Shown here in pieces: positions 36,064 through 47,793 of a DNA stretch of 64,000 nt. The notes under the pieces are model-generated. The model saw only the letters and a list, made by a program, of their open reading frames with translations, made no database searches and was not told where the DNA came from. The DNA comes from Chrysosporum bergii ANA360D (GTDB lineage Bacteria; Cyanobacteriota; Cyanobacteriia; Cyanobacteriales; Nostocaceae). The position numbers and the translations under genes were made by a program. How positions within the stretch are numbered: the stretch's first letter is position 1; each line of letters begins with the position of its first letter. The DNA is taken from the NCBI RefSeq assembly GCF_029891735.1, contig NZ_JANQDH010000090.1, positions 62,001-126,000 of the forward strand, written 5' to 3'.

Positions 36064-37317
36064 ATGACAGAATCAAGGGCTTCGTCCCATCCCAATCCAA
36101 ATCCTGTTCCCCGCCTGGATGTCCCGCCAGTACCACCACCTCCACCACCGTTAGTCAAGCCACCGGACTCTAAACAAAAGTTGGAGATGTCAGCCCATCA
36201 AAATTCCAGCCAACGTCAGAGTAGTCCCCCACCCATGCCTAGTTCTGCAACTGTTCCTAAAATCACTTTGGAGCAGATTATCAAGGAAGCTTTTGATTCA
36301 GGATATTCTGATATTCATTTGGGAGTGGGTGAAGTCCCCCGTTTCCGCAACCGTGGGGAAATTCAACCCACAGATTATCTAGAAACAGACTCAGAAACCT
36401 TTATGAGTTGGTTGCGGGAGATATTAACAGAGTCAGAAATTCAGCGTTTTCAAGACCATCTGGAATTTGATGGCGCAACTCAGTACGATTTTGCCAGGGT
36501 GCGGATTAATGTTTTTGACTCTCTCAAAGGCTCTGCCATGGTACTGCGGTTAATTCCCCTGAAAATCTTGTCTATGGAGCAGTTGAGATTACCGACAGTT
36601 TTTCGGGAGATTTGCCATCACCACAAAGGATTAATTTTAGTTACTGGGCCAACGGGTTCTGGTAAATCCACCACAATGGCCGCCATGATTGACTATATCA
36701 ATAGAGAGATGGCGAAACACATCATCACTATTGAAGACCCTATTGAGTTTGTCCACCAAAGCCGTAAATCTTTGGTTAAGCAACGGGAAGTAGGAATGCA
36801 CACCCGCAAATTTGATAACGCTTTAAAGGCGGCTTTACGGGAAGATCCAGATTTGATTCTAGTGGGGGAAATGCGTGATAAAGAAACCGTTAATACTGCT
36901 CTGAAAGCCGCTCAAACTGGTCACTTGGTCATGGGAACCCTACATACTAATAGTGCGGTGAAAACCATTGAGCGGATTCTCAATCTTTACTCTGGTGAAG
37001 AACAAGATGCAATGCGGGTGGCAATTTCCGAGTCTTTAGTGGCGGTAATTGCTCAAGGTTTATGCCGCACAAGTGATGGAAAGCGGGCGGCATTCCACGA
37101 TATTTTGATTAATACTGAGGCCATCAAAGAATGGATCAAAGATGGTAAGTATGATGAAATTACTGAGTTGATGAAGCAAGCCAGTTTTGACGGCATGATT
37201 ACCATGAATCAATCCTTGTACAATCTTTACCAAGAAGGTCGCATCACCGAAGAAACGGCTTTAGAAATGTCACCAACTCCTAACGAAATGGCACAATTTC
37301 TCAGGGGACGAGTTTAG
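36064..37317 (+). CDS. pilT: PilT-like type IV pilus retraction ATPase
   Basis: A 417-residue secretion ATPase. Residues 1-65 are a Pro/Ser-rich disordered leader. The N-terminal PAS-like domain (ITLEQIIKEAFDSGYSDIHL) and the RecA-like core follow: Walker A GPTGSGKST at about 195-203, Asp box IITIEDPIEFVH, Walker B-type LREDPDLILVGEMRD, His box GHLVMGTLHTNSAVKTIERI. The PilT-type C-terminal AIRE-like helix is not obvious, so PilT2 or a PilU-like paralogue is possible. It powers pilus retraction for twitching or gliding. It is followed by the KaiB-like gene and lies next to the hmp motility locus. Confidence 0.85.
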   Translation: MTESRASSHPNPNPVPRLDVPPVPPPPPPLVKPPDSKQKLEMSAHQNSSQRQSSPPPMPSSATVPKITLEQIIKEAFDSGYSDIHLGVGEVPRFRNRGEIQPTDYLETDSETFMSWLREILTESEIQRFQDHLEFDGATQYDFARVRINVFDSLKGSAMVLRLIPLKILSMEQLRLPTVFREICHHHKGLILVTGPTGSGKSTTMAAMIDYINREMAKHIITIEDPIEFVHQSRKSLVKQREVGMHTRKFDNALKAALREDPDLILVGEMRDKETVNTALKAAQTGHLVMGTLHTNSAVKTIERILNLYSGEEQDAMRVAISESLVAVIAQGLCRTSDGKRAAFHDILINTEAIKEWIKDGKYDEITELMKQASFDGMITMNQSLYNLYQEGRITEETALEMSPTPNEMAQFLRGRV

Positions 37318-37327
37318 TTAGAATATA

Positions 37328-37353
37328 GGGTAAAAAAAATTGTTTTTTTACCC
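37328..37353. promoter_or_regulatory. hairpin between pilT and KaiB-like gene
   Basis: GGGTAAAAAAA (37328-37338) pairs perfectly with TTTTTTTACCC (37343-37353), an 11-bp stem with loop ATTG. It lies 10 bases after the pilT stop and 11 bases before the next start. There is no following T-run on the plus strand, so it may be a partial terminator, a processing site or a translational control element. Confidence 0.6.
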
Positions 37354-37364
37354 CTGTAACTCAA

Positions 37365-38129
37365 TTGATCACAGATAAACTATCTCAACCCCAGTTGTGC
37401 AAAGGTGTTGCTCTTTTTACACCAGGAGGAGATTTAATTTACTGCATCGACCCTAACAAGCAGGGTCGATGGCATTTAGATTTGTGTGCTGCTTTGCAGG
37501 AAATCTTAGATTTACCAGAAGCACCACACTTTTTAGTTCCTTGTTATACTGCTACCATTGACCACTGGTTAGATCCACATAGCCACCAAGTGCGAACCTT
37601 TGCGGAAGCCTATCCAGCTGTAATTCGACAACAGGCTATACTTAATGCCATTTTTGGGACTCAGGTAGTTTGGCAAACAGCACCTTGGCAAGAGGGGTTG
37701 TGCGATCGCATGGTATTAAGTACCTATCGCGCTGCGTTTCCCCAACTGTGGGAAGACCATGATTTAATTGTCAATTTAGACCAATGGCAAAGCAAACCTA
37801 AACATCATCCACAAGTAATATCTGGACAAAAGTCACAGTTAAACACAGAATGCTATGTTTTGCGCCTGTTTGTTGCTGGACATAGTATGAATACTCAACG
37901 GATCCTGGAGAATCTGCACCAACTTTTAGAGCGATCGCTGGGGTATCCTTATACTATGAAAGTTATTGATGTTTTAACTAATCCCGAACTAGCAGAAATT
38001 GACCAAGTTTCTGCAACTCCCACACTTGTTAAGGTTTGGCCGCAACCAATTCGGCGCATTGTCGGCGATATAGATAATGTAGATAAACTTTTACAAATGT
38101 TAGGGGCTAAGAGGATGTCTGAGAAGTAA
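37365..38129 (+). CDS. KaiB-like domain protein with N-terminal extension domain
   Basis: 254 residues from a TTG start; there is no ATG nearby in frame. Residues about 163-247 match the KaiB fold: YVLRLFVAGHSMNTQRILEN, then YTMKVIDVLTNPELAEIDQV and SATPTLVKVWPQPIRRIVGD, the same pattern as KaiB and the SasA sensor domain. Residues 1-145 form a separate domain I cannot name (CKGVALFTPGGDLIYCIDPN onward). There is no kinase domain, so it is neither SasA nor canonical KaiB (about 100 residues). It follows the pilT-like gene by 47 bases and is probably co-transcribed. A clock-like or thioredoxin-fold partner role in motility is inference only. Confidence 0.8.
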   Translation: MITDKLSQPQLCKGVALFTPGGDLIYCIDPNKQGRWHLDLCAALQEILDLPEAPHFLVPCYTATIDHWLDPHSHQVRTFAEAYPAVIRQQAILNAIFGTQVVWQTAPWQEGLCDRMVLSTYRAAFPQLWEDHDLIVNLDQWQSKPKHHPQVISGQKSQLNTECYVLRLFVAGHSMNTQRILENLHQLLERSLGYPYTMKVIDVLTNPELAEIDQVSATPTLVKVWPQPIRRIVGDIDNVDKLLQMLGAKRMSEK

Positions 38130-38251: not shown

Positions 38252-41200
38252 TTAAGAACTAACTAATTTTTCTCCTGTCAGCATCCGTACTGCTGCTTCC
38301 AGTAATACTTCTTCCAGATAAGGCTTGGTAAAGTAACCACTAGCACCGAGTTGAATTGCCATTTGTCTGTGTTTGTCTGCACCCCTGGAAGTGAGCATGG
38401 CAATGGGAAGGTGGTTGAGGTTAGCATCTTTTTGGATGCGGGAGAGTAATTCCAGTCCATCGCAACGGGGCATTTCAATGTCACAAAATACGATATCGCA
38501 AGGTAAACCAGAACGCAGTTTTTCCCAGGCTTCCTGTCCGTCGCGGGCTTGTTCAACTCGATAACCAGCTTTATTAAATGTCAGTGAGAGTAATTCCCTC
38601 ACTGTAATGGAATCATCCACAATTAGGACTGTAGGATCAACTTTTTCTACCGTTTCTGGTTGCAGCCAAAGATTACTGCTATTCTGTTTAGAAATCCGTC
38701 CGTGGAAGATGTCAATAATTTCTAGTACATCAGCAATGGGCATAATATGACCGTCACCCAAGATGGTAGCACCAGCAACACCAATGGGTTTAGGTGCGGG
38801 TGGTTCAAATTGCTTGATGACAATTTCTTGTTCACTCAGCACCATGTCAATTTGAAGGCCAATTAAAGTATTCCCGGATCGCACTACCACCACCGAAATC
38901 ATATCATCATCTCGGTTGCCACCATAAACATTACCGCGACTCAGTTGGCGATTGAGAGTTAAAAGTTCTCTCAAAGGTCGCAAAGGCAGTACTGTATCAC
39001 GCCAAGAAATATATGATTGTCCATCCTGGTTATACTGAATACTAGTTACTGGTATATCTAAAGTATCTTCCACCCCGTCCATAGGGAAAGCAATCCGCCC
39101 TTTATCAGAAACACAGCATAAGGCTTTACAAATACTCAAAGTCAACGGTAAACGAATGGTAAAAGTAGTTCCCTTACGTACAGCAGAGTCTGTGCTGACT
39201 GTACCGCGAATTTCGCTAATTGCGGAGCGGACTATATCCATTCCGACACCACGCCCGGCGATTTCATCTGCTTTGTCTTTGATACTAAAACCAGGACGGA
39301 ACAGCAGGTCATAGATTTCCTTGTGGGAAATGGATTTTGCCTGAGCTGGTGTAATCATCCCCATTTGCATCGCTTTTGCCTTGATTCTTTCTGGATCGAT
39401 ACCAGCACCGTCATCACCGACAGAAATGACCGTTTGATTACCTTGGTGGAAGGCGCGAATCGTAATTTTTCCCACCCTGGGTTTACCGCGTTTCTCCCTG
39501 ATCTCTGGGGTTTCAATACCGTGAGCGATGGCATTATTGAGCATATGGGTAAATGGGTCGGTGAGATGATCTAAAATCATCTTGTCAATCAAGACATCTC
39601 CACCTGAAATCACCAACTCTACTTGTTTACCATACTTGATGGCATTGTCCCGCACTCCTCGCCGCAAGCGATCAATAGTTTGGGAAAAAGGAACCATTCG
39701 CGCTCTTGTTAGCCCTTCTTGCAGCTGGTTTGTCACTTGGCGGAACTGTCGCGCTACTGTTTCTGTTTCTTCTGTGACGAAATCAATATCACTCGCTGAC
39801 TCGCGCACCCGGACAATAAATTCAATCATTTCTTGGGATAAGGTGTGAAAAGGAGTGAAGCGATCCATTTCTAACTCACTAAATCCCCTGTCTGTATGGG
39901 AATCATCATTATTCTGGTCAGTTGTTAGATGTCCTTGAGGTTCTTTGGTTTTGCGACTAGCTAAGAGAGAAGCTTCCAATAGCGATCGCTCATACAATTC
40001 TTGCATCCTTGCTCCCACGTCGGACAGATGTTGGACTTGAATCAGCAAGTTATCTAAAGATTGCCGTAGCCGTTCATAATCCTGTTCCAAGGTGTTCCGG
40101 TTGACCACCAACTCCCCAACTAAATTGCTCATCTCGTCCAGTTGCTTAACTGGGACTTTCATTGTTTCCTCAAATCTAGCAGTATAACGATCTGAACTAG
40201 GGGAGATTTTGCTGGTGTTTGCTCTTGGTTGGGTTGGTGATGACTGGGATATAGTTTTATCTGCTTGTGCCAGTAGTTTCTCTAAATCGCTAAATTCATC
40301 ATCCACATCCGATGATGTGATGGTATAGTCGGCAGTTTGGTTAATAATTGATTCAAATTCTGGTGCGTAGGATGGTTGAGTTAGTTGGTTCAGTCCGGTT
40401 CTATTTAGCAAAGCCTCCAGTTCAGCAAAATCATCTTCTGGGAGGGAACTGGCATCAGAACCTACTACTATTTGCCTGTCTAATATAGCTTCTAACTCAG
40501 CAAATTCATCTAGGGTAGAAGTATCAGTGTCTAAAACCAATAATTGATCATCTTCATGACTTTGAAGATAAGTTAAATTATCTCTAGAGGTTATGTCCTC
40601 ATTTAATATGATTGGGGAATTTTGGTCCAGACTATCTGTTTTTGATGACTCTTTTGTAAATTCTGGTGTTACATCTAAAGTTTCTGGCTCTTGGGAAAAG
40701 CTACTCATTTTCTGTAGAGTCAGGTTTTCATCATTGTCATCGATAGAAAGTAGAAAATTAGATGCTGCTAAATCTGCAAATAAATCATCCGCATCGTCAT
40801 TTTCTCTATTAACACTTGTTGTCAGAGTGGGTATATACTCTTCAATGTTGCTACAAGCGTCACCACCTACGGAAGCCAACAAACTTTCCTCTAAGGCTTT
40901 TGCTACATCTTGATCAACTACGGGAACAACTTCCCCTTGTTCTGCTGTTATGCTTTCCTGGTTCCAAAAGTCCTCTTCTGCCTGCGTAAACTCTATTATT
41001 TGTGTAGGAGTTATATCAAATAAATCACTTATTTCTGAATCATGGTTAGACAAATGTGGTTGCTCTTCAAGGTCAGCAAAATCATCAAACAAATCATCTA
41101 AACTCAAAGACTGTGACTCTAGTGTACTAGCTTGGGCTTCTCTGTAGTTATCTAGGGGAATATCTCGACTATTTGCATTACTTGTTGCTGATAATAAATC

Positions 41201-42511
41201 ATCAAAATCGCTATCAATATCGTCAACATTAGGCTTACTAACATTTATTTCTAATTCACTAGCGGCGCTAACATTTAAAACTTCCTGTTGTTCCCAATGT
41301 TGATCTAATTCTGGCATTTCATCTGCAAATAAATCTGCCAGAGTATTCAATTCAGACAATCCTACTAATGGGGTATTTGAGTATAAATCATTATTACTAA
41401 TATCTACCTCTTCTTCCTGACCCAGGGAGAATATTTCCCCAAAAGCTGAAGTATCCTCCGTGGGGTGAAGTTGGTCTGAGAGTTGACTTAAGCTGGTTAT
41501 ACTGTCTATTGGCTGTATATCGGTTTGACTTGCAAAATTATCTGTGGTGGAAGGTAATTCCTCATCTGCTGTCAGAGGATACAAGTAGTCCGCGGGTAAA
41601 AATCCTGCTAATTGCTGACTAATGCCTATGCTGGTTTCTTGTCCTTGAATAACTAATTCTTGAGCTTGTTTAATTTCAGTAATGACAATTTTAGCCAGGC
41701 TGAGATAATTATTTTCCGGATTACTGATGGCATTTGCTGCTGCTTGACATAATTTACACCAATGTGGCAAATTCCGCTTTTGTCCGAGTTTGACTAACTT
41801 TTGACAACATTGCTGAAGATTTTGCCGAGATTCGGGTGTTGTATTTGTTTTAAACAGTTGCAACATTTCCCGCAGTGTTTGTAAAACATCGGTTTTAAAT
41901 TCATCCCAATTTTGATGAGTCAGCGCAGGTAGGGAATTTTCTGTGAGTTTTACTGATGTATTTTCCTTTTCTTGTTCCCAGTGGGAAATATCTGTCCGCA
42001 GGAACAGTTCAGTTAGTGTGCTGAAAGTATCCTGCTCATTTAATTCTGCTTGTGTTGTTGTATTTCTTGTTGCTACCCCACTTCTGTTTTGTTCTACCAG
42101 CAGTTCCAGATGCTCATTTAACCATTTAAAGACTGGCTCAGTTTCTAACATCAGAGTATTAGCAGCCTCTTGTGATAGACCTAAAGGACCACTCAAATGT
42201 TCTAATAAGACCTTGAGGGTATCAGATACACCAAGAAATAAAGATTCTAATTGTTGGTCAACCTGAACCGGATTTTCTTTAAGAACTTTAAAACAATCTT
42301 CCAGACGGTGGGAGGTACGCTGAATGCTATCCAGCCCCAGCATAGCTGCACCTCCTTTGATGGAATGAGCAGCCCGGAAAACTTCGTTGATCATTTCCGG
42401 GTCTTTCAAGGTACTTTCGAGGTTCAGTAAGCCTTGCTCAATCGTATTCAGATGGTCTCTGGCTTCTTCTATGAAGTAACCTAAAATCCGCTGTTGTTGT
42501 TCCTGCAGCAT
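38252..42511 (-). CDS. hmpE: hybrid CheA histidine kinase of hmp locus
   Basis: A 1419-residue CheA. The Hpt domain at 1-105 has phospho-acceptor H49 (AAHSIKGGAAML). A long acidic, low-complexity linker follows at about 150-770. The dimerisation helices begin at about 785 (VPVKQLDEMSNLVGELVVNR), then the HATPase (HMLNNAIAHGIE as N box; VGDDGAGIDPERIKA as G1), the CheW-like domain and a C-terminal REC domain (VLIVDDSITVREL, phospho-Asp in FCDIEMPRCDG). It phosphorylates the CheY-type HmpB/HmpA under MCP control. It is last of the minus-strand hmp genes, 68 bases after hmpD. The symbol follows Nostoc punctiforme gene order. Confidence 0.9.
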   Translation of the reverse strand: MLQEQQQRILGYFIEEARDHLNTIEQGLLNLESTLKDPEMINEVFRAAHSIKGGAAMLGLDSIQRTSHRLEDCFKVLKENPVQVDQQLESLFLGVSDTLKVLLEHLSGPLGLSQEAANTLMLETEPVFKWLNEHLELLVEQNRSGVATRNTTTQAELNEQDTFSTLTELFLRTDISHWEQEKENTSVKLTENSLPALTHQNWDEFKTDVLQTLREMLQLFKTNTTPESRQNLQQCCQKLVKLGQKRNLPHWCKLCQAAANAISNPENNYLSLAKIVITEIKQAQELVIQGQETSIGISQQLAGFLPADYLYPLTADEELPSTTDNFASQTDIQPIDSITSLSQLSDQLHPTEDTSAFGEIFSLGQEEEVDISNNDLYSNTPLVGLSELNTLADLFADEMPELDQHWEQQEVLNVSAASELEINVSKPNVDDIDSDFDDLLSATSNANSRDIPLDNYREAQASTLESQSLSLDDLFDDFADLEEQPHLSNHDSEISDLFDITPTQIIEFTQAEEDFWNQESITAEQGEVVPVVDQDVAKALEESLLASVGGDACSNIEEYIPTLTTSVNRENDDADDLFADLAASNFLLSIDDNDENLTLQKMSSFSQEPETLDVTPEFTKESSKTDSLDQNSPIILNEDITSRDNLTYLQSHEDDQLLVLDTDTSTLDEFAELEAILDRQIVVGSDASSLPEDDFAELEALLNRTGLNQLTQPSYAPEFESIINQTADYTITSSDVDDEFSDLEKLLAQADKTISQSSPTQPRANTSKISPSSDRYTARFEETMKVPVKQLDEMSNLVGELVVNRNTLEQDYERLRQSLDNLLIQVQHLSDVGARMQELYERSLLEASLLASRKTKEPQGHLTTDQNNDDSHTDRGFSELEMDRFTPFHTLSQEMIEFIVRVRESASDIDFVTEETETVARQFRQVTNQLQEGLTRARMVPFSQTIDRLRRGVRDNAIKYGKQVELVISGGDVLIDKMILDHLTDPFTHMLNNAIAHGIETPEIREKRGKPRVGKITIRAFHQGNQTVISVGDDGAGIDPERIKAKAMQMGMITPAQAKSISHKEIYDLLFRPGFSIKDKADEIAGRGVGMDIVRSAISEIRGTVSTDSAVRKGTTFTIRLPLTLSICKALCCVSDKGRIAFPMDGVEDTLDIPVTSIQYNQDGQSYISWRDTVLPLRPLRELLTLNRQLSRGNVYGGNRDDDMISVVVVRSGNTLIGLQIDMVLSEQEIVIKQFEPPAPKPIGVAGATILGDGHIMPIADVLEIIDIFHGRISKQNSSNLWLQPETVEKVDPTVLIVDDSITVRELLSLTFNKAGYRVEQARDGQEAWEKLRSGLPCDIVFCDIEMPRCDGLELLSRIQKDANLNHLPIAMLTSRGADKHRQMAIQLGASGYFTKPYLEEVLLEAAVRMLTGEKLVSS

Positions 42512-42579
42512 AATACAAATTCTAAGTGCTGAGTTCTGAGTGGTCTTGGGTCTTTGGTCATTGGTTAATGACTAATTAA

Positions 42580-45495
42580 TTACTTAGATTCTGGTGTTTC
42601 CACGCGGAAACGCTCAACGGAGGAGATCAAGTCGCGGGAAACACCCACTAAAAATTGTAAAGCTCCTGAGACCCGTTGAGCCTCTTGGGAGGTTTCTTGG
42701 GCTGTAAGTTCTACAGATTGCATTACCTGGGCTACGGATCGAGAAGTTTCCGTTTGTTCTACGGTGTCACTGGTAATGGAACGCACGAGAGTGTCAATGC
42801 GGTTCGCTACTTGAATAATATTATCTAGCGATCGCTTGGCTTCTTCTGCCAATTTTGTGCCTTTAATTACCTGTTGTGTACCTTCTTCCATGGCGGTCAT
42901 GACTGAGCCTGTTTCGCTTTGGATTTGCAGAACAATCTGTTCAATTTCCTTTAAGGATTTGGCAGATTTATCTGCTAACTGACGCACTTCATCTGCTACG
43001 ATAGCAAAACCGCGTCCTGCCTCACCTGCCCTTGCTGCTTCAATACTGGCATTAAGTGCTAGTAAGTTGGTGCGGGAGGCAATTTGAGAAATTAACGCCA
43101 CAATTTTAGAAATTTCTTGAGAAGATTCAGCTAATCGCTTTACCTTACGGGTGGTTTCCGCTACAGTTTCCCGAATTTCTAAAATTCCTGCTACGGTATT
43201 TTCCACTGCTTCACCACCTTTAACAGCGATGGCACTGGCATCACCGGCAACGATTTCCGCTTCTCGCGCTGCCTCTGCTATTCTTTTTATGCAGTCAGTC
43301 ATCACCTGGACTGAATTTAAGGTGACTTTTAACTCTTCTGCTTGTCGTAAGGCATCACTAGATAAAGCTCTAGCAAATGTTTCTGAATTAGTTGCACCTT
43401 TTGTTACCTCTTTTGCCGCCACTGTTACCTGTTGAACAATGTCCCGGAGGTTTTGAATTGTCAGGTTAAAGGCATCGGCAACTGCGCCTAGTACGTCGGC
43501 AGTTACTTCGGCTTGGACTGTCAAATCACCTCTGGCAGCGCCCTCTACATCGTCCAGTAGGCGAATTACTTGGCGTTGCAGGTTTTCTTTAGCTTCTTCT
43601 TGTTCGTTGGCTTTACGTTGGGCTTGATGGGTAGTTGTTAAAACTGCTTGAGCCATTTCATTAAAGCCGGTGGCCAAGCGCCCCAGTTCGTCTTGGGAAT
43701 AAACAGTGGCTTCCACATTAAAATTACCTTGACGGACTGCTTCAAACTGAGCTTCCAGATCCTCTGTGGTGCGGCGAATTTGCTTGAGTGTTATGCTGCC
43801 CATAAAGGCTGCTGTACCGAACCCAGCAATACCGGCAGCTAGTGACATTGCCCAGCCTGTATTTCGCACTGACTCTCGTTGTTCGGCTGGAGAAAAGTTA
43901 GTAGCTGTAAAGCTTACCGCAGCTACAACTAAGGCTGAAAAAATACCCACTGTACCAGCCACGAACCAGGGTTTCACATCCAGGGGGGCATTTTCTAAGG
44001 GTGCTAACCAGCCTTGTTCAATGCCTACTTTGGGTTCCAGATCCGATAAATCTGTTGCTGTAAAAGGGCTATTTTGTGAGTCGGTGATGGAAAACAGTTC
44101 ATCTTCGCTATTGTTTTCCTCCGTAGTAAGTCCGCGGAAAAGCAGAGTTTCACTATCGCTAGTTTCTTGGTGGTATTTATGGCTACTTTGCAGTTGCCCA
44201 CTGGAATTGAGGGAACCGGAAATCATACTCACATCATTAAAACTGGCTGATGTTTCTTCTACGTCAAACCCAGAAATGTTGGCTAAATCATCAAATTCGT
44301 CAAAGTCATCTAAAAACTCCACATTAGTGTGATGATTGTCTTCATTGGGTTTGTGGTTTGTATCTTCATCTCCAAAAGCAGCTTTAAATGTCTCCAAATC
44401 AAAATCATCATCATTACCAAAGTGATTTATATCTAAATTTTCATCACTGGGAATTTCCTGGGGTTGTGGTGCGGATAGATTGTCTAGGCTTGGCGATGGT
44501 GTTGTTAAATTTTCTTGAACTTTAATTTTATCTGACCAATTACTAGATTCAGATCCGGAGGAATTATCACTCAAATTTGTTAGTGAAGAAGCATTTTCGG
44601 GATTTTCTCCAGTTACCAGTAAATCTTTGTATTCTTGGTTACTTTCTTCCCCGGCAAAGTTTGCCATGTTTTGCTCTTGTTCGGGTTGATATGCCCGAAT
44701 ATTATCACCCTCGGCAAAATTTACTTCTGCGATAGCTTGCTTTACTATATTGTGATTAGTGTTATAAGTGAGTGTGGTTTGCTGAGATTCATCATGGTCA
44801 ATTTCTGGCTCATCTGGGCTGGCTGGGTCAATTTTTTCTTCCCAGAACAGGGGTAATTCTAATTCAATTTGCCCATTGTCTGTGTTCCCATCAGATTCTT
44901 GCTCGCTTTGGGTTTGATTCCAAGCAAAAGGATCTTTACTGGAAGGTTTGATGAAATCTGGGTTTTCATCCAAGGAAATACTGTCTATGGGTACTTCAAA
45001 TGGATTAGTTAAAGATAGATCATCTATATTTACAGATTCATCAAGCCCGTTAATTGAACTTAATTCCCAACTATTGTTATCTAAGTTGTCAAACAACGCC
45101 AAATTTTCTAAATCTGGGTTAACAGATTGCAGATGATTATCAGTTTCTGCAAAATTGCCTTGCTCCTGCTGCTGATTTTCTTCCGCGGGAGCAGGCTCAA
45201 TATTGGACTCTTGTGGTTCTTGGTATTGGTTGATGTTTTTTAAACCATCATTGGCAAAACCAATAATTTCTGGGTCATCAGACAACTGCAAAACTTTTTT
45301 GTACTCTTCTTGTGCTACATGGTACTGCTGCAACACATAGTAGACGTGACCCCGTAATAAATGGCAGTTAGGGTCATCTGGTACATTTTGCACCACTTGA
45401 TCCACTAACCTGGCTGCTACTTCGTAGTTCTGTTGTGCATAGGCTGTACGAGCCTGCTTATATGTCTCTAAATGATCATTTAAACTAGCTGGCAT
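42580..45495 (-). CDS. hmpD: methyl-accepting chemotaxis protein with TPR-like N-terminus
   Basis: 971 residues. A TPR-like helical pair at about 1-85 ([20 protein letters not shown]) precedes an acidic disordered region to about 500. Two membrane helices, about 508-530 and 548-570, are separated by only about 18 residues, so there is no periplasmic sensor domain. HAMP-like segments ([20 protein letters not shown]) and the MCP signalling domain with hairpin tip [20 protein letters not shown] follow. Sensing must therefore come from the cytoplasmic N-terminus or from partners. It is 16 bases from hmpC. Confidence 0.9.
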
Positions 45496-45511
45496 TTGCT
45501 CCCTCCCAATT

Positions 45512-46042
45512 TCATCCTGCCCATCTTGTGCTTTGCAAAATTGCCATTTGATCGATCAGTCTTAAGCACTGTTGATTATTAGCATTTATTAACCACTCTC
45601 CACGTAAAAACGGAGTCATCGTGTCCGGTAAATTAGTTGGTGGCATTAGATTCTGGATATCCAGCCAGTCCATACCACCAATTTCTTCCACGGCTAAACC
45701 CATGATTGTATCTTGGTCTTCAATAGCAATCACTGGAATTTCTGATCTATCTGTGTTTAGCCCGGTTGGTTCACCCAGGAATTGACCCAAGTCAGCCACC
45801 CAAATTACTCGACCCCGTAAATTTAGAGTACCCAAAAGTAAAGGAGAAGCATTAGGAATGGGGGTAATTCTATCAGGCGTTAGCTCCATTACCTCTCGGA
45901 TACCGGTGGCCGGTAGTGCAAATTCCTGACGGGAGGGGATATAAAACCGCAAGTGTAACTCACCTTCAGGGCTTTCTACTTGTAATTCCGGACGAAACTG
46001 ATCTTCACCGCTACCACTTAAAAAGTTGGGTTTGCTCACCAT
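45512..46042 (-). CDS. hmpC: CheW-type adaptor protein
   Basis: A 176-residue CheW-domain protein coupling the MCP HmpD to the CheA HmpE. Typical CheW features: [20 protein letters not shown], then [20 protein letters not shown] and [10 protein letters not shown]. The start ATG lies 7 bases after the hmpB stop, and hmpD follows 16 bases after its own stop, so hmpB-C-D are one transcription unit. Confidence 0.9.
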
Positions 46043-46049
46043 ATTCTTT

Positions 46050-46415
46050 TCATCCTCGCAGCAGTTGTTTGACTGTTCCCACCAATTCGGTTGGTTGAAA
46101 CGGTTTGGCTATGTAAGCATCTGCACCTTGCTTCATACCCCAGTAGCGGTCAAATTCCTCACCCTTAGAAGAACACATGACCACAGGTACATTTTGGGTG
46201 GTCGGGTTAGACTTTAACCGACGACAAACTTCATAGCCGTTCATCCGGGGCATAACAATATCCAATACCACTAAATCCGGAGGGGCAGTTTGAATTGCCT
46301 CTAATGCCTCTACTCCGTCATTGGCATGGGTAACCATTAAACCACTTGCTTTCAGGAGGTCTGTAATCATCTCCCGTTGTGCAATACTGTCTTCCACAAT
46401 TAAAACTGTACTCAT
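46050..46415 (-). CDS. hmpB: CheY-like response regulator
   Basis: A 121-residue stand-alone receiver domain. Acidic pocket E8/D9 (IVEDS), phospho-acceptor D52 (VVLDIVMPRMNG), switch Ser in PVVMCSSKGEE, and conserved Lys in YIAKPFQP. It is PilH-like and lacks an output domain, so it acts by protein contact. It lies in the hmp operon between hmpA (175 bases upstream) and hmpC. Confidence 0.92.
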   Translation of the reverse strand: MSTVLIVEDSIAQREMITDLLKASGLMVTHANDGVEALEAIQTAPPDLVVLDIVMPRMNGYEVCRRLKSNPTTQNVPVVMCSSKGEEFDRYWGMKQGADAYIAKPFQPTELVGTVKQLLRG

Positions 46416-46590
46416 AAATCCCTATCTGCCTCCTGATGTAGAGGTTCCTGGTTGGAACATTCCCTAATCCCCCGAAAATAGTTAATTGTATAAATTAATT
46501 TGATCTTTTCACTGATGTATTTATAATAATAACCTGGTGCTGAGGATAATTGATTATTTGATAACACGTTTTGCCCAAGATTTTCTCAAA

Positions 46591-47793
46591 TTAGTCTGTG
46601 TAGTTTTGTATTGGTGTTCCCTGATAAGGTTGTGGGTTGATATATTTTTCTATGAGCATGAGTAACTCAGCATCCCCAAAGGGCTTGGTGAGATAATCTG
46701 TTGCTCCCACCATTGTCGCCCTGACTCGATCTATGAATTGATCTTTACCAGTTAGCATGATAATGGGTGTATCCTGAAATGCGGTGGAGTGGCGTAACAT
46801 GGCGCAAATTTCGTAACCATCTAATTCTGGCATGGCAATGTCACATATGATTAAGTTTGGCTGGAGTTGAAAAATGAGACTGATAGACTCTAAGGGATTG
46901 GTCAAGCCGATGGCTTCATATCCCTGTGGTTGTAATATAGACTCTACAGTTTCACAAACTGTTCTGGTGTCGTCAATACATACTACTCGTGTTTTATACT
47001 TGTGAGCATTTCTGGAATCTTCTCTGTGTATGGTAAAATTATTATTACCTGAATCGACTAGTTGTAGCCAACCCTGTTGTAAATATGGATATATTGCCTT
47101 GGCAACGGTCAAAATATCTCGGTTGAGATGGCGAGCTAGTTGACGCAGGGTTGTCTTACCATCTGCCCATCGCTGTAATTTTTTGATTGCCGCCGCGGGG
47201 AGTGAGGATTGTAGTTGAACTAACTCAGCTAGGATGGGTAATTGTTCGGCAGACTGAATATGTGGATAAAGCTGCTTCCATTCTTGTATGGCCTGAGTAA
47301 CTTTGTATATCAAAGGGGGAATTTCCCAGCTGGTCAATTGCGGGGTGAGGGTGGTACCTTGCCGAAATGTAAAACTACCGTGATGTAAACTCAACAAATC
47401 AAACAGAGTCTCATACACCAAGCTGTGGATAATACTATGAGCTACCTTGGGGTTAATGAGATTCCGTTCTAACAATGCCCATATATAGCCATATTCTGGT
47501 ACATTCTGAAACCCTAAGCAAGCAAGTTGCTGTTGATCAAGTCGCGTCTCAATGCGGTAATATCGTAAGTAATCGTCAATGCGTGACAAATTAGTCTCGC
47601 CCTGTTGACAGTAGATAATTTGACCATTGATAAAAAAAACGAACCAAAACTGTTTATGTCTGGCTGTCTGATCATTTGTGTATCTGTCAGTATTGTGAAA
47701 GCAGGCTTCCACTAAAAGTTGTCCTGTTCGCTGTCCTAACGAAATCAATTGCAGGATGCTGCGAATATCAATTTCATTTAAATTTCCCTGCAT
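46591..47793 (-). CDS. hmpA: PatA/PixG-like response regulator
   Basis: 400 residues. The N-terminal PATAN (DUF4388) domain begins MQGNLNEIDIRSILQLISLG and runs to about 150. A winged-helix-like middle region follows, with the C-terminal REC domain at about 270-395 (VVCIDDTRTVCETVESILQP, phospho-Asp in LIICDIAMPELDG, Lys in DYLTKPFGD). This is the architecture of PatA, PixG and PilG-type regulators, which in cyanobacteria act on type IV pilus motor proteins or cell differentiation. It is first of the hmp genes and divergent from hmpF. Confidence 0.9.
   Translation of the reverse strand: MQGNLNEIDIRSILQLISLGQRTGQLLVEACFHNTDRYTNDQTARHKQFWFVFFINGQIIYCQQGETNLSRIDDYLRYYRIETRLDQQQLACLGFQNVPEYGYIWALLERNLINPKVAHSIIHSLVYETLFDLLSLHHGSFTFRQGTTLTPQLTSWEIPPLIYKVTQAIQEWKQLYPHIQSAEQLPILAELVQLQSSLPAAAIKKLQRWADGKTTLRQLARHLNRDILTVAKAIYPYLQQGWLQLVDSGNNNFTIHREDSRNAHKYKTRVVCIDDTRTVCETVESILQPQGYEAIGLTNPLESISLIFQLQPNLIICDIAMPELDGYEICAMLRHSTAFQDTPIIMLTGKDQFIDRVRATMVGATDYLTKPFGDAELLMLIEKYINPQPYQGTPIQNYTD

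Follow-up and report, generated by a model that had tools for sequence, protein, structure and literature searches.

SasA is a larger KaiC-binding protein, whose stable KaiB-like N-terminal domain docks on KaiC. A different case is that of the proteins named "elongated KaiB", with about 250 amino acids and an N-terminal extension of ~150 amino acids, which are described as occurring only in cyanobacteria (Schmelling et al. 2017, PMC5520375). Their KaiB domain was given the name KaiB-4 by Wayment-Steele et al. (2023, PMC10808063), and one KaiB-4 domain solved by NMR (PDB 8UBH) is presented in that paper as a monomer in a stable fold-switched state. The same source states that a KaiB from Legionella likewise crystallised in the fold-switched state. 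For KaiB itself, the double mutant G89A/D91R has been reported to be mostly fold-switched, and KaiC to be bound only by the fold-switched form (PMC8059507). In S. elongatus, pilus genes and competence are described as being under the control of the clock through gene expression (PMC7125226), which makes it plausible, in principle, that pili are tied to the clock.

The window analyzed here, a stretch of 64,000 nucleotides from Chrysosporum bergii ANA360D, encodes an elongated KaiB protein (P0002) immediately after a pilus retraction ATPase (P0001), with both genes on the same strand (Table 1). The initial annotation had described a PilT-like ATPase gene followed by a KaiB-like gene; its coordinates are exact, and both family matches hold.

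Table 1. Features of the pilT2-fusion locus and its surroundings (positions of the window).
Feature	Coordinates	Strand	Remarks
PilT2-type ATPase gene (P0001)	36064..37317	+	ATG start, 417 aa, TIGR01420 match
Elongated KaiB / KaiB-4 fusion gene (P0002)	37365..38129	+	TTG start, 254 aa
N-domain of P0002, residues 9-140	37389..37784	+	Fusion-specific in the survey
KaiB domain of P0002, residues 163-247	37851..38105	+	Pfam PF07689, closest PDB chain 8ubh
A/T-rich hairpin GGGTAAAAAAAATTGTTTTTTTACCC	37328..37353	+	Inside the 47-nt pilT2-fusion gap
Small membrane-protein-like ORF, 161 aa	35178..35663	-	Divergent neighbor of pilT2
hmp-type chemotaxis cluster: CheA, MCP, CheW, CheY, DUF4388/receiver	38252..47793	-	Converges on the fusion

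With its 254 aa and an N-domain placed ahead of a KaiB domain, P0002 has the length and the architecture of an elongated KaiB. Pfam recognizes KaiB at residues 167-247 (E 2e-29), and the KaiB domain that was expected in residues 163-247 is present there, as judged by sequence. The score against the canonical KaiB model TIGR02654 (82.7 bits) lies below its cut-off of 145.3; P0002 is also much longer than a canonical KaiB (about 100 aa) and is encoded away from kaiABC, and it is therefore not a canonical KaiB. The best PDB match obtained by sequence search is 8UBH, of which the compared stretch of 83 residues is identical (83/83) to the C-terminal domain of the fusion from locus L071 (genome G083), a gene located 19 nt behind pilT2. 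This identity indicates that P0002 and the protein solved by NMR belong to one family and share their gene neighborhood, the window fusion being a distant orthologue of the L071 fusion (47% identity). P0002 is thus a member of the described elongated KaiB / KaiB-4 family and not a new type of fusion: the fusion, which the initial annotation had presented as one without a described function, is real, but its family had already been described.

The product of the gene that precedes the fusion is a type IVa pilus ATPase of the PilT/PilU family (483.2 bits against TIGR01420, whose cut-off is 319.1), with a proline-rich N-terminus and an intact Walker A motif (GPTGSGKST, residues 195-203). One further full-scoring PilT is encoded in the same genome, where it adjoins a PilB-like ATPase on contig C12, while P0001 is encoded on C90. 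For this reason, P0001 is considered a stand-alone second PilT and is here named PilT2, a label that denotes a second PilT away from pilB and that was assigned by gene position.

This gene pair, whose conservation the initial annotation had proposed as a check, is conserved. Of the 291 genomes of the phylum that were searched with a profile of the fusion, 79 hold a full-length copy, a count from which G141 (a decayed pseudogene) and G191 (N-domain lost) were left out. In 70 of these 79 genomes, the gene directly upstream and on the same strand encodes PilT2, with the ends of the two matches 7-942 nt apart (median 96, and at most 300 nt in 63 of them). Among the remaining ones, PilT2 is found elsewhere in five and was not found in four, and it is therefore present in 75/79 fusion genomes, with matches at E up to 1e-100 scored as present, including those of G221, G251, and G285, which are partial or contain stops. 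PilT2 is also present in 40 of the 60 genomes that have some KaiB match but no fusion; G013 and G090, whose weak KaiB matches fall outside the class, were left out of this 79/60 table together with G141 and G191.

Of the 51 loci of a second collection (among them L035, which holds an internal run of N, and L053, a second copy on the contig of L039), 44 have a near-full-length, stop-free PilT2 at most 472 nt upstream of the fusion. In the others, PilT2 is interrupted (L045), reduced to fragments (L017 and L004), or was not found within the locus (L008, L010, L028, and L043), although the genome of L043 holds a PilT2-like match on another contig. The interruption at L045, from Planktothrix paucivesiculata PCC 9631, splits pilT2 by about 1 kb (L045:3638-5732).

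The pairing of PilT2 and the fusion is far above chance, and a linkage that the window's family shares with a genome as distant as that of the 8UBH orthologue is hard to explain by chance. Among the matches listed in a search of the openly licensed literature, no report of the pilT2-KaiB-4 pairing was found. As the protein family itself is already known, the new part is the linkage to pilT2, together with its exceptions.

With respect to the flanking features, the chemotaxis cluster that converges on the fusion, which we take to be of the hmp type following the name used in the initial annotation, is next to the pair in the window as had been claimed, but this adjacency is not conserved. Downstream sequence of 5 kb or more is available for 42 of the 51 loci; among the 51, L004 and L047 are the only ones that again encode a close HmpE-type CheA, and weaker CheA matches (32-49%) appear in L008, L010, and L030. 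The divergent 161-aa ORF has no Pfam or NCBIfam family (a Tetraspanin match with E 0.06 is below the cut-off). Homologues of this ORF are encoded in 36/51 loci (L004-L054) and in 4/8 fusion-less loci, and they stay beside the fusion in the loci that lost pilT2. Hairpins comparable to that of the window occur at the same site of the gap in L011, L013, L015, L016, and L018, and those of the relatives have the form GGTAAAAAG...CTTTTTACC. No terminator-like site was found, and the hairpin has no Rfam match; this structure could lower the expression of the second gene. The TTG is found at the same start codon in 29/51 loci, which would be compatible with low amounts of the fusion protein.

The residues of the KaiB domain are informative about its conformation. 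After merging identical domains (from 96 to 90 for KaiB-4 and from 21 to 20 for KaiB1), Gly89 is replaced in 90/90, Asp91 in 88/90, and Pro71, a residue that presumably also bears on the fold switch, in 87/90 distinct KaiB-4 domains, and none of the three is replaced in any of the 20 distinct KaiB1 sequences. P0002 shows Met, Gly, and Gln where KaiB1 has Gly89, Asp91, and Pro71, with its fold-switch-associated residues at positions 227, 245, and 247. From this composition, the KaiB domain of the window is expected to be fold-switched at rest. A KaiB-like fold switch, which the initial annotation had suggested as a signal, is consequently unlikely, as the domain of the orthologue is a stable fold-switched monomer and P0002 carries these replacements. 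AlphaFold2 yielded a poor model of the full P0002 (pLDDT 51, with low values in the KaiB domain too), and Foldseek placed 8UBH first with ground-state KaiB chains close behind, so that the fold is not decided by that ranking. Other residues of KaiB have been retained in KaiB-4: Y40, P63, P70, P72, and G78 are unchanged in 90/90 domains, K43 is kept in 87/90, and R74 in 82/90. In turn, A41, which we take to face KaiA, is changed to T in 89/90, and K58 to Q in 76/90, and because positions such as these differ from KaiB1, the partner may differ as well.

The N-domain has no match in Pfam, and a search of its profile against the PDB returned only noise (the best hit being a stathmin chain, E 0.01). 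Besides the 79 fusions, the N-domain profile (A2) matched, at E up to 0.1 in the 291 genomes of the phylum, only the G141 pseudogene (in two pieces) and a single noise hit (E 0.02); no gene encoding only the N-domain was found in these genomes, and within this survey the N-domain occurs only in the KaiB fusion. Residues W36 and H37 are conserved in 92/92 sequences, and C41 in 91/92. The AlphaFold2 model of the N-domain alone is too weak to assign a fold (pLDDT 64, pTM 0.57), and Foldseek found no match to it at E 0.001 or less. Gelsolin-like domains were considered as kin of the N-domain, and the best VIA-align Z of 3.7, obtained on this weak model, was treated as no evidence of kinship. Synechocystis slr1534, which we took to adjoin pilT2 and to be a possible N-domain-only relative, was dropped in view of the survey of the 291 genomes. 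At L097 (G191), the fusion is reduced to its KaiB half (match residues 114-248), and PilT2 is intact.

Regarding function, the reading that we tentatively favor over the others is that of P0002 as a two-domain clock adaptor, a SasA-like reader of KaiC for which pilus retraction would be one output. The C-terminal KaiB domain would be held in a thioredoxin-like, fold-switched, KaiC-binding shape and, being already in the binding form, it would be expected to dock on the CI ring of KaiC in the manner of the SasA N-terminal domain, skipping the slow fold switch of KaiB1. Docking would track the phosphorylation cycle of KaiC, and the N-domain, as the putative output that acts on a partner, would thereby be presented or hidden. 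The fusion gene is probably co-expressed with pilT2, presumably from a common operon transcript, and for motile species this would point first to the retraction ATPase, or to its control, as the partner, whereas a partner would also have to exist in species without pili.

The clock itself is encoded elsewhere in the genome of the window, where a canonical kaiABC cluster is located away from the pilT2-fusion locus. The KaiA of this genome is a truncated form of 101 aa (L133:670-975), and truncated KaiA has been reported for Nostocales (PMC5520375). KaiA_C is found in 77/79 genomes with the fusion versus 43/60 without it, counting KaiA as present even as a fragment or with stops (G033, G135, G153, and G258). 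The Fisher p for co-occurrence with the fusion, in which relatedness is ignored, is 1.9e-5 for PilT2 and 1.8e-5 for KaiA; given that KaiC and KaiA are widespread in the surveyed genomes, this co-occurrence says little. A full-scoring KaiC is present in 9/9 genomes with an intact fusion and no intact PilT2 (G046, G227, G177, G262, and G291-G295). Individual genomes depart from the complete set of clock genes. G249 holds the fusion, KaiB1, and KaiC with KaiA undetectable, and at its kai locus (L132, G249:C1:640000-648000) kaiB1 and kaiC have no detectable kaiA adjoining them. G038, a draft of 220 contigs, has the fusion, and neither KaiA nor a full-scoring KaiC was detected in it. In G153, a single draft of 200 contigs, kaiA is decayed, kaiB1 is missing from the kai locus, and the fusion is absent, with PilT2 and KaiC intact. 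The loci L131 (G153:C3) and L134 show an intact kaiC, a decayed kaiA, and no kaiB1, with pilT2 kept without the fusion.

The joint absence of the fusion, kaiB1, and intact kaiA in G153 would fit a pure clock modulator, in which KaiB-4 rivals KaiB1 or SasA in binding KaiC, or keeps hold of KaiA or CikA, trimming the phase or the amplitude, with pilT2 as a neighbor that shares its timing. The persistence of the fusion after the loss of pilT2 (see below) points in the same direction, as would the TTG start of 29/51 loci if it does mean low amounts of protein. However, the pilT2 linkage reaches the distant genome of the 8UBH orthologue, and A41 is changed in KaiB-4, so that we regard this explanation as somewhat unlikely. 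Published expression data on kaiB paralogues were also considered. Translation of the kaiB3 primers for Cyanothece 51142 gives HHLLET and VSATPT, peptides with a KaiB-4-like look, but a search of 388 genomes found no copy of the forward primer, and the kaiB3/kaiB4 rhythms of this strain were therefore rejected as evidence on the fusion. A kaiB paralogue of Microcystis with inverse expression is not assignable to the fusion from the available part of its description.

The fusion remains open in genomes that have lost PilT2. A single PilT, adjoining a PilB-like ATPase, is kept in G046, G227, and G295 (L028), which show no PilT2 match; G262 and G294 (L017) hold the PilT/PilB family reduced to a fragment, and no PilT/PilB-family match was found in G177 or in G291-G293 (the L004, L008, and L010 genomes). 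Altogether, six fusion-bearing genomes (G177, G262, and G291-G294) are without an intact PilT/PilB match; L010 derives from a chromosome-level record, and L004, L008, and L028 from MAGs, in which absence is weaker. Purifying selection acts on the fusion in three pilT2-less pairs (G046/G227, G177/G262, and L008/L010), each of which we infer to share one loss event. In these pairs, respectively, 8, 16, and 28 amino-acid changes were observed versus 18, 34.5, and 45 expected under neutrality (p 7.5e-6, 2.6e-9, and 7.8e-7), with omega values of 0.14, 0.14, and 0.25. Omega is 0.04-0.14 in four pairs of which both members keep PilT2 near the fusion (L006/L047, L012/L014, L071/L072, and L024/L026), and these lower values suggest that the constraint may be somewhat relaxed after the loss of pilT2, most in L008/L010. 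G141, in which pilT2 and the fusion have both decayed, is a case against persistence.

A fusion that is intact and constrained once pilT2, and sometimes every intact PilT/PilB ATPase, has gone disfavors a role restricted to pilus retraction. G153, which keeps pilT2 but has a decayed kaiA and neither the fusion nor kaiB1, also goes against such a role. Of the link to retraction drawn in the initial annotation, a tie between the clock and pili may hold. It is also unlikely that the fusion is a dedicated regulator that adjusts retraction by binding PilT2 and whose KaiB domain serves only as a thioredoxin-like protein-binding module. Such a regulator would account for the adjacency in 70/79 genomes and 44/51 loci and for the presence of PilT2 in 75/79 fusion genomes, but not for the constraint in the three pilT2-less pairs, the intact fusions of L004, L017, and L028, the six genomes devoid of an intact PilT/PilB match, or the 40/60 genomes in which PilT2 lacks the fusion. 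A direct mechanical link between the clock and retraction, in which the fold-locked KaiB domain would sit on KaiC and the N-domain would retain or free PilT2 according to the state of KaiC, through contact and not transcription, seems to us improbable. Also quite doubtful is a thioredoxin-like domain that has lost its binding to KaiC and has another partner, with W36, H37, and C41 of the N-domain as a ligand or metal site, which would suit the conservation of these residues (92/92, 92/92, and 91/92) and the fold-switched crystal of Legionella KaiB, but not the retention of Y40, P63, P70, P72, and G78 in 90/90 KaiB-4 domains and of K43 and R74 in nearly all of them.

KaiB-4, a KaiB locked by nature in one fold, has served to test structure prediction. 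The strong linkage to pilT2 and the survival of the fusion after the loss of this gene narrow the question of its role, and could expose an output of the clock that operates by protein contact.

Among the known systems, SasA resembles P0002 in having a KaiB-like domain at one end of the protein, and its N-terminal domain shows weak homology to the KaiB domain of P0002. However, SasA is a histidine kinase, and P0002, which has no kinase domain according to Pfam, does not belong with it. The PilT-family gene described in PMC6495340 is, like P0001, located apart from the pilB-pilT locus, a likeness that refers to the description given in that source, whose available passages do not mention what adjoins that gene. 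KaiB-TV-4 of Thermosynechococcus vestitus (WP_011056401, PDB 8UBH) shares both architecture and family with P0002, and pilT2 is not mentioned in the available sections of its source paper (PMC10808063). Finally, the KaiB1 of the kaiABC clock of the same genome has a KaiB domain homologous to that of P0002 and 47% identical to it but, unlike P0002, it carries no N-domain, keeps Gly89, Asp91, and Pro71, and is encoded within kaiABC.
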